A DNA stretch of 64,000 nucleotides from Stentor roeselii. Taxonomy: Eukaryota > Ciliophora > Heterotrichea > Heterotrichida > Stentoridae. Positions 54,423-60,986 of this stretch are shown in pieces; positions within the stretch are counted from its first letter, which is position 1; each line of letters opens with the position of its first letter. Location: the NCBI GenBank assembly GCA_006503475.1, contig RSEH01000090.1, positions 62,001 to 126,000 on the forward strand, in the 5' to 3' direction. The position numbers and the translations under genes were made by a program. The notes below the pieces were generated by a model, which saw nothing but the letters and a program-made list of their open reading frames with translations, did not search any database and was not told the DNA's origin.

Positions 54423-55844
54423 TTATTCATTCACTCTCTTTCCAACAATCCACTTATGATTCAAAGCTTGACAAGCAGTGATCCTCTTTTTCGGGTCATA
54501 CTCAAGACACTTTTTCACCAAATCAACAAATTCACTATCACAACAATTAACAACCTGTTCAATTTTCCTTCCCCCAGGTTGAACAATTCTTCCATTTTCC
54601 ATCCTAAGCTCATCCCTCTCCATCATTTTCTCAGGCATTTCTGAGACCTTCAAAACTTCCTTCGGTGGATATCCAATAAGCTCTACAATCAAAGCAGCCT
54701 GATCCACTTCACTTTCTCCAGGCAGCAAAGGACATCCAGTGACAAGTTCCACTAAAATACATCCAAAAGACCACATATCAATAGCTTCATTATAATCAAT
54801 TCCTAAAATAATTTCAGGTGCTCTATAAAACCTGCTTTGAATATAAGTATGTATCTTCTCCGATTGAAACGTGGAACTTCCAAAGTCAATTAAAACAACT
54901 TCTGACTTTAAAGCCGATCGAAGTAAAATATTTTCAAGTTTCAAGTCGCAATGAACGATGTTTAATGACGATAAAAAAACCAGTCCTTTTAGAATCTGGC
55001 TTGCAAAACGTCGAACAAGAGCAAGTGAAAGACCTTTGTAGTTGTTTAGTTTAACTACTTCATAAAGGTTGTAGTGGAAAAGGTCGAAAACCATGCAGAT
55101 ATGCATGCGAAAAATCATCGAATTTTTCAGTTTCACGACTGGTTGTTGGTCAAAAATGTCATTTTCTCGCAAGGCTGAAAGAACTGACAACTCAATTGAA
55201 GCTTGCTTGTAAAAGCGTTTTTTATTGCGAATTACTTTTAAAGCTACTTTTTCGCTACGTTTGTGATCGATGCACTCGAAGACCTGTCCGAAAGTTCCTT
55301 TGCCGATCATTCGAATTGCTTCAAATCTATAAGCAAGATGGTCACCTTTAGTTACTTTAAGGTTGCCATTTACATCATCAAATCCGAAATTTACCTGGTC
55401 TAGCTTCGCTGATATCTTATTTACGCGATTTCCTAAATAAAAAATTTCTTTAAATCCGAGGATTTCTGACTGTTCATAAGCGGTAAGTTCAGTCGAATGA
55501 CTCATTAAAACTTCTTTCGCACTCATGAACTGCTTCAACTTTTTGCTGTTTGGAGGAGAAAGAACTGATTTTATGTGAAAGTTTGTTGGAGATGTCACTT
55601 TACTTAAAACTTTTTTTCTTTGAATTGACTTCGGCCCGATGATTGTGCCTGTTGAAGTTGAGATGTTGAGAACTGGCTTTAAATGGACAGAACTTTGATT
55701 TGGTTGATGGTTCTTCGAATTGAAGGAAGAGACTTTTCTTTTTATGAAACTTGATGGTTTTTGCACTGGCTTCAATTTGGAAAGTTGGGATTTGCTGAGT
55801 TTTTCAAGGCTTTTCGATTTTTGATGGATTTTGTTGAGAGACAT
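54423..55844 (-). CDS. DYRK-family protein kinase
   Basis: 473 aa. Basic Ser-rich N-terminus (1-105), a DYRK-homology/NAPA-like stretch LTAYEQSEILGFKEIFYLG (120-138) and GDHLAYRFEAIRMIGKGTFGQV leading into the kinase (174-467). Lys203, HCD (298-300; the DYRK form of HRD), DFGSS (320-324) and the YIQSRFYRAPEIILG loop with Tyr334 for autophosphorylation are all present. Class 2 DYRK (DYRK2/3/4, Pom1) is the best fit. Likely active on Ser/Thr substrates in growth, polarity or the cell cycle. Confidence 0.95.
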   Translation of the reverse strand: MSLNKIHQKSKSLEKLSKSQLSKLKPVQKPSSFIKRKVSSFNSKNHQPNQSSVHLKPVLNISTSTGTIIGPKSIQRKKVLSKVTSPTNFHIKSVLSPPNSKKLKQFMSAKEVLMSHSTELTAYEQSEILGFKEIFYLGNRVNKISAKLDQVNFGFDDVNGNLKVTKGDHLAYRFEAIRMIGKGTFGQVFECIDHKRSEKVALKVIRNKKRFYKQASIELSVLSALRENDIFDQQPVVKLKNSMIFRMHICMVFDLFHYNLYEVVKLNNYKGLSLALVRRFASQILKGLVFLSSLNIVHCDLKLENILLRSALKSEVVLIDFGSSTFQSEKIHTYIQSRFYRAPEIILGIDYNEAIDMWSFGCILVELVTGCPLLPGESEVDQAALIVELIGYPPKEVLKVSEMPEKMMERDELRMENGRIVQPGGRKIEQVVNCCDSEFVDLVKKCLEYDPKKRITACQALNHKWIVGKRVNE

Positions 55845-56167
55845 TTATGGCCACTAAGAAAGGTTTATATTTTTGATCATTTTGATTAAATTTAAAGAGC
55901 TTGATGTGGGGAAGGACTGGAAAAATTTTAAGATAATTAATGGGATGAGTTCTTTTTTGACTCATGAAAACTATTGGAGACTTTCTTGGTTAAATATGAT
56001 GAAATTGAAAAATGATTGAAAAGTGAGGACTTTATCAAAACTTGATTAAAATTGTCTTGTTATCAAAACTTTTCTTTTCTGACCTTGAATGTTTTTCCTT
56101 AAATATAACCAGGACTCAACATTCCTATCATATTTAATATAACTTGACCTTAGAAGATTAACTTAAA
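55845..56167. other. Intergenic, 323 bp, no gene seen
   Basis: AT-rich, between the start of the DYRK gene and the end of the PKA gene, both minus strand. No feature recognised. Confidence 0.6.
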
Positions 56168-57127
56168 TCAAGCTGTCCAATTCAAAAAAGGGTCAAAATT
56201 GGACTGAACTGCTGGAGCATTAGTTAAACTTTCAGGGTAGTTCATGAAATGTGACGTGTCTCCAGCGTTAGTCACTTTGGGCACGTGAATCATCGGAATC
56301 CTTTTAAGAACCATTAGTTCCCAGTTGGTCCCTTTGAACCAACGATGTCCTTTAATGTCTTGGACTCCTTTTTTCAAGTTTCCGTATCTTTTGCTCAGGT
56401 CAGTCACCAGCAGATGCTTGATGAGACTTTTGGCATTCCTCTCAAACTTTCGAGTAAATGAAAATTTACCTTTTAGGATCTTCTGGTATATCAACATTGG
56501 GTCTTCGTCGTGAAATGGGTCGATACCAGCGATCATCTCGTAGATAATCACTCCTAAGGTCCACCAGTCGACAGGCTTTCCATGACCCTTGTTCATTAGA
56601 ATTTCAGGTGCCAAGTACTCAGGAGTTCCACAAAGTGTGTAACTCCGCTCATGAATAACCTTGGCAAATCCGAAGTCAGTCAACTTCAAATACCCATCAG
56701 CTGCTATTAACAGATTTTCTGGTTTCAGGTCTCTGTAAACAATGTTGAGAGAGTGAAGATACTCGAACATGAGAGCGATTTGAGATGCGTAAATCACTGA
56801 CTGAGGATTATCAAACGCGCCTACTGAGCGTAGATGAGTGAATAAGTCCCCGCCTGCCACGAACTCCATTCCAAAGTACAGATAAGAAGGATCCTGTGTG
56901 AAACCAACAAGATTGACCAGTAAAGGATGGTTTGTTAGTTTAAGTATTGAATATTCAGACTCAACATGATCAACCTGTTTCGTTCTAATCAAATGCGATT
57001 TTTTCATAGATTTAATAGCAATATAGTCCCCAGTTTGCTTATTCCGAGCAAGTCTCACCCTTCCAAAAGCTCCAGTTCCAAGAGTTTTAATAAATTGATA
57101 AGAACCCAGGTCTAGATTTTTCGACAT
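56168..57127 (-). CDS. cAMP-dependent protein kinase catalytic subunit-like (AGC kinase)
   Basis: Start taken at the ATG at 57127 (MSKNLDLGSYQF); an upstream GTG is in frame but the ATG fits. 319 aa. GTGAFGRV loop (17-24), Lys39, YRDLKPEN (131-138), DFG (151-153), activation loop SYTLCGTPEYLAPE with Thr164, then DWWTLGVIIYEM. The tail RYGNLKKGVQDIKGHRWF and the C-terminal FDPF (FxxF-like) match PKA-C. Phosphorylates targets when cAMP or cGMP frees it from its regulatory subunit. The pocket and loop residues are complete, so it should be active. Ends in TGA. Confidence 0.94.
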   Translation of the reverse strand: MSKNLDLGSYQFIKTLGTGAFGRVRLARNKQTGDYIAIKSMKKSHLIRTKQVDHVESEYSILKLTNHPLLVNLVGFTQDPSYLYFGMEFVAGGDLFTHLRSVGAFDNPQSVIYASQIALMFEYLHSLNIVYRDLKPENLLIAADGYLKLTDFGFAKVIHERSYTLCGTPEYLAPEILMNKGHGKPVDWWTLGVIIYEMIAGIDPFHDEDPMLIYQKILKGKFSFTRKFERNAKSLIKHLLVTDLSKRYGNLKKGVQDIKGHRWFKGTNWELMVLKRIPMIHVPKVTNAGDTSHFMNYPESLTNAPAVQSNFDPFLNWTA

Positions 57128-57249
57128 ATTATAAAACCCAAACAACTCCAAGTTCAACTTTTTCACTATAAAATCCTTATTTTTAATATGAAATCATTAA
57201 AATCCAAACCTTAGTGATTTTTCACTTCAACATTCCTTCCAATAAAAAA

Positions 57250-58626
57250 ATGAAAAAAAACTCTAAAGTCTTTTTAGACATCATCATCGGAACTAAAGCT
57301 GCAGGGCGGGTGACCATCGAGCTTTTCGAAGACTTGACACCTTTCACCTGTGAGAACTTCCGAGGTCTTTGCACAGGTGACTACGGAAAGAGTAGTTCAG
57401 GTCAGGCCCTTTGTTACCAAGATTCCTTATTTTTCAAGTTGATTCCCAACAAGTACCTTATCGGAGGCGACATTATTTCAAACACAGGAAAAACAGGAGA
57501 GTCAATCTACGGAAAGACCTTCGTTGATGAGAGTTTTTCTCGAAAGCATTCATCAGCAGGTCTTTTATCGACTTACTCGAAAGGTCCGAATACGAACTCA
57601 AGTTCCTTCATCATCACACTTTCTGAATGTGAAGAACTTGATGGAAAAAGTGTTGTTTTCGGGCAGGTTGTTGAAGGTCTTCAAGTTTTAAAGACAATGG
57701 AAAAAACACCGATTGACTCTTTTTATAAACCTAAAGTCCCGATACGAGTTTTTAACTGTGGACAACTGGGTGATGGCCGGGAACATGTGAAATTCGAGGA
57801 GTTTAGAGACCAGATCAAGATTTATAGAGCTTTTGAAGAGAAGAAAGCGCAAAGAAAAGAAGAGCATTTAAGACAGTATTATCAGTTACTTAATACAACT
57901 GGGGAAAATCAAAGAGAAATTATTGACCCTCAAGATGAGAAAAATAATGGCACGGAAGATGAGGAAAGCGAAGAATTTGAAGAATTTGAAGAAAATCAAG
58001 AAAAAATCTCAGAAAATTCACTCACCGCTCGACTAGCTCATCTAAAAAAATCTTTAAAACAAGCAAAAAAAGCAAATCAACAAGCAGTTCTAGAAGAAGA
58101 CGAGAAAAACATAAACCCATCACTTGACAAAAAACGAAAAAAACAGGAATGGCTATCAAAAGAGAAAAAAAAACAAGAAAACTTAGAAATTCTCGGAATT
58201 TCGACTGAAAAAGCTTATTTAACCGACAGCATCGCACATGCAGGCAACGTTGAGAAAAAAAAGCGAAAAAGAGACAAAAGGTCGACTTACGGTTGGGAAG
58301 TTTTCAACACAGACGCTCATTTAAGAGCCTATAAAAAGCGTGTCGCAAAGCTAGAAACCGACAAAACTCTAGCAAATCAACAAAGCGAAAACCCAACAAT
58401 TATTATTTCAGACCCAGTCCCTGAAAAAATCGAAAAAATGGCAGCTGAACTCGAAGCAGAAGCTGAAAGAAAAAATAAATTCAGCAGAAGAAGAGGATTC
58501 AACCAAGACCTAGACGTGAGTTACATCAATGAAAGAAATCGAGTTTATAACTTGAAACTCGACAGGACCTATAAAGACTACGTCGCTGAGATTAAAAGGA
58601 ACTTAGAACGCGGTACATCAATTTAA
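57250..58626 (+). CDS. Cyclophilin-like domain fused to splicing factor SYF2
   Basis: 458 aa in one unbroken frame; ATG at 57250 after AATAAAAAA. Residues 5-174 are a cyclophilin fold (VFLDIIIGTKAAGRVTIELF...VVFGQVVEGLQVL...NCGQLG). Key active-site residues differ from human cyclophilin A: R55 is Lys63, F60 Lys68, M61 Tyr69, Q63 Ile71, F113 Ile121, W121 Glu129 and H126 Ser134, so isomerase activity is doubtful. A charged linker with an acidic tract follows (about 190-255). Residues ~255-458 match SYF2: KKKRKRDKRSTYGWEVFN, SRRRGFNQDLDVSYINERN and a final AEIKRNLERGTSI. SYF2 belongs to the NTC-related part of the active spliceosome. Confidence 0.93.
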   Translation: MKKNSKVFLDIIIGTKAAGRVTIELFEDLTPFTCENFRGLCTGDYGKSSSGQALCYQDSLFFKLIPNKYLIGGDIISNTGKTGESIYGKTFVDESFSRKHSSAGLLSTYSKGPNTNSSSFIITLSECEELDGKSVVFGQVVEGLQVLKTMEKTPIDSFYKPKVPIRVFNCGQLGDGREHVKFEEFRDQIKIYRAFEEKKAQRKEEHLRQYYQLLNTTGENQREIIDPQDEKNNGTEDEESEEFEEFEENQEKISENSLTARLAHLKKSLKQAKKANQQAVLEEDEKNINPSLDKKRKKQEWLSKEKKKQENLEILGISTEKAYLTDSIAHAGNVEKKKRKRDKRSTYGWEVFNTDAHLRAYKKRVAKLETDKTLANQQSENPTIIISDPVPEKIEKMAAELEAEAERKNKFSRRRGFNQDLDVSYINERNRVYNLKLDRTYKDYVAEIKRNLERGTSI

Positions 58627-60986
58627 TTGTCTAAACTGGTGAAATTTGATAACTTTTCAATTTTTTCATTCAAACTTTCTAGTTCTTCTCTGTGTTTCAA
58701 AAGTGATTCACGGAGACTTTCGTCTTCTGATTTTTTTTCAAGTAAGGAAATGTTGAGAGACTCGGAAGACTCAAGAAGAGATTGAAGCTCGTTTGTCATT
58801 TCTTTTATTTCGTTGTTGATTTTTGCAGCTTCTTTGAAGAGCTTGTTGGACCTTGCTTGTTTTTTTTCGGATTCCATGATTGGAAGTTTTAGTTTTATTT
58901 CATCGATGCGAGATTCTTGTTGTTTTAACTCGTCTTGATAAGAGTTTATTTCTTGAGTTAGGGTTTTTAGAGTTTTTTCACAGTTGGAAAGTTTTTCTTT
59001 TGATGATTTTAAAGATTCTTTGTTTTTTAATACCTCGGATAATGAAGCTTCTCGAATTTTGATTTGGTTTTGAATGGATTTGAAACGTTCTTCGAAGGAT
59101 TGGTGGACTTCAACGGTTTTTATGAGTTTTTCAGTGATTTTTTCTATTATTTGACTGCAGTCTTCGATTTCTTTTTGATTTTTTTGTTTTTCATTTGATG
59201 ATGTTATGAGTAAGGCCTCGAGTTCAGAGGTTTCTACACGGATCAGGTCTTCAGCAGCTTGAATTTCTTGAAAATCGTCGAAAAACTCGACATCAACTCC
59301 GTTTAATTCATTTTCTATTAACTTTAACTTGTCACTCAACAGGTCTTTACTCGCGATTTTTTCATTTAAAAGTTTCGTGATTTCTTCAATTTCTTTTAAA
59401 ACACTTTCCAAAGAATTCTCAGTTTTTTCCTTTTCCTCCTTCAAAGGTTCTGAGCGATTTTTCACTTTTTCCTGAACTTCTTCTTTTTTTTCTTTAAGAC
59501 CTTCTTGCAAGTTAAAAACTTCTTCATTTTTTTTTTCAATTTCTTTCGAAAAATTTTTATTATTATTTTCGAAATTCTCTGAAAAAGTAACAAGTGAAGA
59601 TTTTTTCAATTCCAAGTCAAAAGTGCAAGTATCAATAATATTTTTCAATGAATCTTCAGTCCTGATAAACAAATTTCTAACCTCTTGATAAAGTTTCGAC
59701 TTTTCCACTTCCATTGTCAAGAACTCTTCAGATTTTTTTTCTAAATCTTTTAATGTAAACTCGATTTTAAGCAGAAGACTTTCACGTTCATCTGAATAAT
59801 TAACGGCCAGGTCGAAGTCTTCTGAATTCGCTGCTTCTGAGGCGAGGTTTTCCAGTTCTTTTTCTTTTTCTTGCATTACTTGAAGGTCTGCCTGGTAGTT
59901 TTTTTGCACGTCTTTTAAGGTTTGCTGATCGGATGAAAGCTTTTCGATTGACTTTTGAAGTGAAGAAAGATTTTCCTCGAAAGTGTTGAGGATAAAGTCG
60001 CTGTTTAAACGTTGTTCTAAGGATTTTCGCTCGAGATCTAAACGATCAAGTTCTTGCTTTCGGAGAAATTCTTCTTGTTCTTGAAGGAGGAGGGCCTCTT
60101 TTTGATCTCTTTCTTTACGTGCAAGGGCTTCTTGCTCTTGAAGTTTAGAAAATGCTTCTTGTATTGCTTTTTCTTCTTCAGCTTTTAAGAGTAAAGAGGT
60201 TTTTACTGCTTCTTCAGATGATGGGTTGATTTTAGGACTTTTTTCAAGACTTTCCTCTTTTTTTTCTGAGAGTTGTTTAGCTTCAGTTTCATTTTTTGTT
60301 GTAATTTTCTTTTTTTTCTCAGATCCTGAAGAATCTCTAGATTTTTTTTTATTTTTTCCTTGTTCACTGTAAACTTTTTTCTCTTTTTCCAGATTTTCAT
60401 TAACCTTCTCATTATTTTTCCGTAGTTCATTAATTCTCTGAGCAGTTCTAACATTAGAAATCCCAGAAAATAAATTCCCTTGTCCTTCTTCACTACTTTC
60501 AAAGTTCCTTCCAACATTCCCCTTGCGAAGTTCGCTGCTGACTTCATTTCGAATGACATTCGCTTTTTTAATAACAACAGGTGCAGGATTCTGACTGCTT
60601 TTTGCATCACCCATGGTAAGGTCAAGTAAGAACTCAATAGAATTAGGGTCGTTTTTCTTTAAGTCCTTTCCAGTGTCTCCAGATTGAGGGTGTTCTTTGA
60701 CATCATTCCAAACATTCGCTTCTGTTGGTCCCAAGGTGTTAAAATTGAAGGCTTTTGGGGTTTCACCAAGTAAGTCTTCGAAAGGATCCTTGAAAGTCTT
60801 AACAGTTTCAGTTTTTCCTTCATTCATCTGGACTACTGGAGAACTCTGAACATTTTTAACAACCGGCTTCGGAACAGGAGTCTTCACAGCAAGTCCTCCA
60901 AAGATACTCGGCGGTTTAACCGGTTCAGGAGGAGGCTTATGTTCTTCTTCTTTCTTAAAGAAAATATCTGTTTAAAGTTTACTCAT
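58623..60986 (-). CDS. Long coiled-coil protein, one intron with a 4-nt first coding exon
   Basis: The frame runs 60967-58623 and needs a start; an ATG at 60986 followed by one A and a 15-nt intron (60982-60968) gives MNIFFKKEEEHKPPPEPVKPP. About 780 aa. Residues ~1-130 are Pro/Lys-rich with acidic DPFEDLL-like motifs that recall clathrin/adaptor-binding sites. From ~150 to ~240 the protein is charged, and ~245-770 is coiled coil. No other domain. Membrane traffic is a possible theme because of the DPF and FEDLL motifs, but this is weak. Its stop codon overlaps that of the cyclophilin-SYF2 gene. Confidence 0.85.
60968..60982 (-). other. 15-nt intron after a 4-nt coding exon
   Basis: Sense GTAAACTTTAAACAG, phase 1, A at position 10. 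Exon 1 is ATGA (60986-60983). Confidence 0.85.

Follow-up and report, generated by a model that had tools for sequence, protein, structure and literature searches.

Fusions of a cyclophilin to the splicing factor SYF2 have been in print since 2009, when Kruecken et al. described "Cyps with SYF2 domain" which carry an ABH cyclophilin at the N-terminus and SYF2 at the C-terminus (PMC2713222). Such SYF2-Cyps were tabulated for Cryptosporidium muris, Toxoplasma gondii, Plasmodium falciparum, P. yoelii, and Babesia bovis, and Tetrahymena, Paramecium, and Ostreococcus were also named as having them; a nuclear localisation signal is reported for every apicomplexan SYF2-Cyp except CmCyp48.8 (PMC2713222). 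The fused gene of Tetrahymena is called CSY1 in the Gene deFuser paper of 2011 (PMC3143110), and a review of 2024 gives PfCyP81 and PvCyP65 (PMC11357558), while the matched passages of PMC12606809 contain nothing on SYF2. The same domain order is found in the Syf2 of Chlamydomonas reinhardtii (8xi2 chain M, 563 aa), in which the cyclophilin spans residues 2-175 and SYF2 residues 344-559. The entry 8xi2 is the C* spliceosome of this alga; the accompanying paper places Syf2 among the NTC-related proteins, and the complex contains PPIL1 besides Syf2 (PMC11833078). In the main text of that paper the words cyclophilin, PPIase, prolyl, cyp, and fused have 0 occurrences each and SYF2 has 2, though chain 8xi2_M bears a cyclophilin domain (PMC11833078). 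Contacts between a cyclophilin and SYF2 are also described for separate gene products: rice OsCYP20-2 binds OsSYF2 in two-hybrid and pull-down experiments (PMC7483694), and in the human C complex the back face of PPIL1 is contacted by SYF2 (PMC6315705).

We analysed a window of 64,000 nucleotides, in which one open reading frame on the forward strand codes for a fusion of this kind. It runs for 458 codons from an ATG to a TAA at 58626 without any in-frame stop under the standard code, and upstream of the ATG the open frame extends by 21 codons only. Its parts are the following:

57250..58626, + strand: whole gene for a fused cyclophilin-SYF2 protein of the CSY1 type, 458 aa (open reading frame and Pfam; both parts match chain 8xi2_M)
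57256..57774, + strand: N-terminal cyclophilin domain, residues 3-175, with 1/9 catalytic residues retained (Pfam, PDB matches, alignment, AlphaFold2)
57436..57462, + strand: active-site segment, residues 63-71, KLIPNKYLI where 1qng has RIIPQFMCQ (alignment)
57793..57909, + strand: predicted long helix, residues 182-220, shortly after the cyclophilin (AlphaFold2)
57910..58026, + strand: acidic linker, about residues 221-259 (sequence; pLDDT below 50 at 228-236, predicted helix from 239)
58027..58623, + strand: SYF2 part, residues 260-458, with its Pfam core at 323-453 (Pfam, phmmer, 8xi2_M)

The cyclophilin family PF00160 was recognised at residues 13-171 (E 1.6e-34, 119.8 bits) and the SYF2 family PF08231 at residues 323-453 (E 1.7e-23, 84.1 bits), both above the curated Pfam cut-offs of 21.7 and 23.5 bits, which bears out the statement of a preliminary description of this DNA that the two domains lie in one frame. 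The ABH type of the cyclophilin was judged from its best PDB matches, which are PfCyP19, plant cyclophilins, PPIG, and PPIH. A scan against NCBIfam gave no match, and the SYF2 part found no relative in viral_contigs. A run rich in Lys and Arg, EKKKRKRDKR, is visible by eye in the fused protein. Within the coding sequence, GT..AG strings of 15 nt and of 16 nt occur five times each, and no intron was recognised in the gene, the strings in the cyclophilin part having been checked by alignment, to which none of them adds residues. On its downstream side, the stop of the fused gene (58623-58626) overlaps by 4 nt with the end of a convergent open reading frame at 58623-60827 (- strand; 734 aa, no Pfam family above cut-off). 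Upstream, two protein kinase genes adjoin at 54423-57127 (- strand), and the nearer one and the fused gene diverge across an intergenic stretch of 122 bases (57128-57249).

With the cyclophilin at the very N-terminus and SYF2 towards the C-terminal end of one chain, the protein has the CSY1/SYF2-Cyp architecture. This is the order published for CSY1 of Tetrahymena thermophila (EAR98967), for Paramecium, and for the apicomplexan proteins TgCyp66.2, BbCyp57.3, and PfCyp80.9/PfCyP81 (PMC2713222, PMC3143110). The preliminary description had taken the two proteins to be separate in other eukaryotes and had known of no described fusion; the literature from 2009 and 2011 and the Chlamydomonas chain contradict the former and show the latter to be wrong, so that the idea of a hitherto unknown fusion is corrected here. 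As in the protein of the window, the middle region of the apicomplexan SYF2-Cyps lacks known features, and the length of 458 aa falls near the short end of five tabulated members, which range from 417 to 677 aa; one of the family, PfCyp80.9, is described as very divergent and provides a precedent for divergence (PMC2713222). Over its full length the protein has its best PDB match in 8xi2_M (whole-sequence E 1.4e-56), a single chain to which residues 3-175 and 260-457 align; between the two matches lie 168 residues in the algal chain and 84 here, an approximately twofold difference. By phmmer the SYF2 part covers about residues 260-458 and matches human SYF2 (5mqf chain N, 243 residues, E 1.9e-23) through to its final residue, the C-termini reading NLERGTSI here and NLERGTAV in human. 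Unlike the fused protein, human SYF2 shows no cyclophilin in the table row of this match. An artefact, in which assembly or annotation joined two genes, has a negligible probability in our view, given the one continuous frame through the linker, the lack of a second SYF2 in the assembly, and the identical domain order in Chlamydomonas and the published alveolates.

As catalytic positions of a cyclophilin we chose nine residues which we take to be R55, F60, M61, Q63, A101, F113, W121, L122, and H126 in cyclophilin A numbering. Seven substitutions had been named in the preliminary description, and all of them (K63, K68, Y69, I71, I121, E129, S134) are present; they presumably correspond to R55, F60, M61, Q63, F113, W121, and H126 of cyclophilin A. 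An eighth replacement, Tyr109 at the position of A101, had been missed. The domain thus reads K K Y I Y I E L S where a canonical cyclophilin has R F M Q A F W L H, that is R55K, F60K, M61Y, Q63I, A101Y, F113I, W121E, and H126S, with L122 as the sole catalytic residue retained. Its identity to PfCyP19 (1qng) is 52%, yet only 1/9 of the catalytic positions agree, and the residue set of an active cyclophilin PPIase is missing. Among the fusions, the Tetrahymena, Paramecium, and apicomplexan ones are likened to the window's protein by their published descriptions, and the comparison of active sites covers the Chlamydomonas fusion, which keeps 9/9 catalytic residues in contrast to the 1/9 found here. 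Of 80 fetched bacterial and archaeal relatives, the 29 used retain 7 to 9 of these residues, having been retrieved by patterns that include part of the site. Fourteen cyclophilin domains of the organism's own genome were compared (15 matches minus the fragment L016), and the other 13 retain between 1 and 9.

The replacements are concentrated at the active site. Six canonical cyclophilins (1qng, 8xi2_M, 2mc9, L002, L005, and L006) defined 69 invariant columns, and the fused domain keeps one of the nine active-site columns vs 48 of the 60 others (one-sided Fisher p 1.1e-4, uncorrected, with the columns chosen post hoc after the alignment had been seen). Five of the 12 other lost invariants (H54, M100, N102, A103, Q111) lie beside or between catalytic residues and the remainder are scattered. 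This pattern points to a loss of the active site amid a preserved fold. AlphaFold2 also predicts that the cyclophilin fold is kept, with cyclophilin strands and helices and a ten-residue mean pLDDT of 87-98 over residues 1-170, although the underlying alignment contained the 29 bacterial and archaeal cyclophilins, whose sites are intact or nearly so and which bias the model to a normal fold. Beyond the cyclophilin the model shows helix 182-220, then low confidence within the acidic linker, and finally the SYF2 helices, the SYF2 half being without relatives in the alignment and the overall pTM being 0.50. The best Foldseek matches are the PfCyP19 structures 1qnh and 1qng (target-normalised TM 0.95 and 0.96, rmsd 1.2 and 1.4), and the best 50 of 459 matches comprise cyclophilin entries and chains from larger complexes. 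Chain 8xi2_M is absent among these best 50 of 459, and given this absence its cyclophilin may perhaps be unmodelled.

The same data bear on the view that the domain is an evolutionary passenger of an inherited fusion, whose activity became dispensable and which now decays without a role. The active site is gone and the branch of the domain is long (1.6-2.0 changes per column), as would be expected of such a passenger. Because the core is spared, with 48/60 other invariants kept and a confident fold that would not survive pure decay, we regard this view as improbable. We consider it likely instead that the protein is a CSY1-type SYF2 whose cyclophilin became a non-catalytic module tethered to the spliceosome. 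With its pocket replaced, the fused cyclophilin most likely lacks both proline isomerisation and cyclosporin binding, judging from the residues at the site. By homology to 5mqf_N and 8xi2_M, the C-terminal SYF2 helices would be expected to occupy the NTC-related region of the catalytic spliceosome, like Chlamydomonas Syf2, and SYF2 would carry the N-terminal cyclophilin, on its acidic linker, into every spliceosome that holds SYF2. The cyclophilin would there probably act as a docking or spacer module. The preliminary description had suggested a binding module, and a binding or tethering role does seem the natural reading of a degraded site in a preserved fold. PPIL1 occurs alongside Syf2 in the Chlamydomonas C* complex, so the fused domain does not have to take the place of PPIL1. 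If the loss of the pocket is confirmed, the placement of a cyclophilin at SYF2 would be separated from enzyme activity, which would bear on whether spliceosomal cyclophilins are mainly scaffolds.

As precedents, spliceosomal cyclophilins without isomerase activity are reported in PPIL2 and CWC27; their loss of activity is ascribed to a single substitution in the S1 pocket each, Trp121 to Tyr in PPIL2 and Glu122 in CWC27 (PMC6315705). In the fused domain 8/9 residues are changed, with Glu at the position of Trp121. Binding of proline, though not its isomerisation, is reported for both PPIL2 and CWC27 (PMC6315705), which lends some weight to the idea that the pocket was re-specialised rather than lost and accepts a particular ligand, perhaps a non-proline peptide, via a new surface of Lys, Tyr, and Glu. 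A pocket so heavily altered within an otherwise conserved domain is what one would expect if a new surface had been selected, and equally if the site had decayed. Against this idea, eight of the nine pocket residues differ in ways that alter charge and size. We hold re-specialisation, which overlaps with the docking module and would be one form of it, to be a tentative option that falls short of an even chance.

In a tree of 18 rows, the domain of the window pairs with PfCyP19 (98/97). The AU test, whose hypothesis was named after the first tree, rejected a sister relationship of this domain with the fused domain of Chlamydomonas (p 0.001), a result obtained with 18 rows and a long branch and with thin sampling, the Chlamydomonas chain being the sole other fused sequence in the set. 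When the active site and its surroundings (20 columns) were left out, the rejection persisted (p 0.002), while for the pair with PfCyP19 the bootstrap fell to 43 and the SH-aLRT was 99. Since the cyclophilin domains of the two fusions fall in different places of the tree, a single shared origin of the fusion appears doubtful, and repeated fusion should be taken as a lead only. A more elaborate scenario, which we judge rather unlikely, would be that green algae and alveolates acquired such fusions independently, each from a different cyclophilin, and that here a pseudo-isomerase with a new binding face resulted, in which a permanent cyclophilin seat at SYF2 was selected and catalysis was not.

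The fused gene is the only detectable SYF2 of the organism. In its genome (44.4 Mb, 522 contigs) the Pfam family gave one match, the fused gene itself, and a search with the SYF2 part returned this locus plus three other matches with E values of 0.40 to 0.73; as a check of sensitivity, SKIP/SNW was found once. A survey of the spliceosome of Stentor coeruleus lists Syf2 as N/A or not found, with a dash in the human column; according to its methods, proteins lacking human information were searched for with yeast queries, and it cautions that BLAST can miss distant homologues (PMC9505925). The sequence reported here suggests that Syf2 may have been missed in that survey, which is likely, if the species are related, because a fused SYF2 gene is present here. 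A SYF2 is thereby supplied, whereas the S. coeruleus survey reported none (PMC9505925), and the genome it comes from has a probable 15-nt intron. The probable intron lies in a cyclophilin-RRM gene of PPIL4 order at L014:1819-1833 (GTACTTTTCAAATAG), which contains the only stop of the frame (TAG) and is flanked by SS and FFITL, a normal cyclophilin motif.

Stentor combines 15-nt introns with standard stop codons. The window has 22 open reading frames of at least 300 aa under the standard code, and a 15-nt peak in its intron-like strings is weak at most: GT..TAG strings number 75 at 15 nt vs 51-78 at any other length in the range 10-25 nt, and GTAA..TAG strings 10 vs 1-8. The preliminary description had connected the fusion with splicing of 15-nt introns, and the intron in L014 is compatible with such an adaptation of the spliceosome. 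The fusion also occurs in apicomplexans, Chlamydomonas, and Ostreococcus, besides Tetrahymena and Paramecium; being common to groups outside the heterotrichs, it leaves the proposed connection unsupported. Since apicomplexans and green algae share it, the fusion did not arise for tiny introns, and we consider the adaptation very unlikely; any trait specific to this setting could only be the lost active site.

The cyclophilin search of the genome gave the same 15 matches at default settings and up to E 10. Pfam was run on seven of them (L003, L004, L008, L012, L013, L014, and L015), with these architectures:

L003:1489-2931: FKBP-TPR-cyclophilin
L004: WD40-cyclophilin
L008: cyclophilin plus an Rtf2 RING match that passes the cut-off and a U-box match that does not
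L014: cyclophilin-RRM in PPIL4 order
L012, L013, and L015: cyclophilin only

An RRM-cyclophilin of PPIE order was not found in open frames, nor were PPIL1, PPIL3, or PPIH recognised among them by eye, absences which introns and the uncertain completeness of the assembly make weak as evidence. A role of the fusion as replacement of PPIE or PPIL1 is not claimed, considering these weak absences and the matches for both PPIE and PPIL1 in the S. coeruleus survey (PMC9505925). The FKBP-TPR-cyclophilin architecture is also listed for Toxoplasma TgFCBP57.3 (PMC2713222). Degraded active sites are also seen in L013 (2/9 active-site vs 30/60 other columns, p 0.11) and in L015 (1/9 vs 30/60, p 0.03), the latter being the only one of the eleven rows given the Fisher test, besides the window's, with p <0.05. 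L015 groups with L013 in the tree (100/100), and the best PDB match of L013 is PPIL6, over residues 4-267 of 340.
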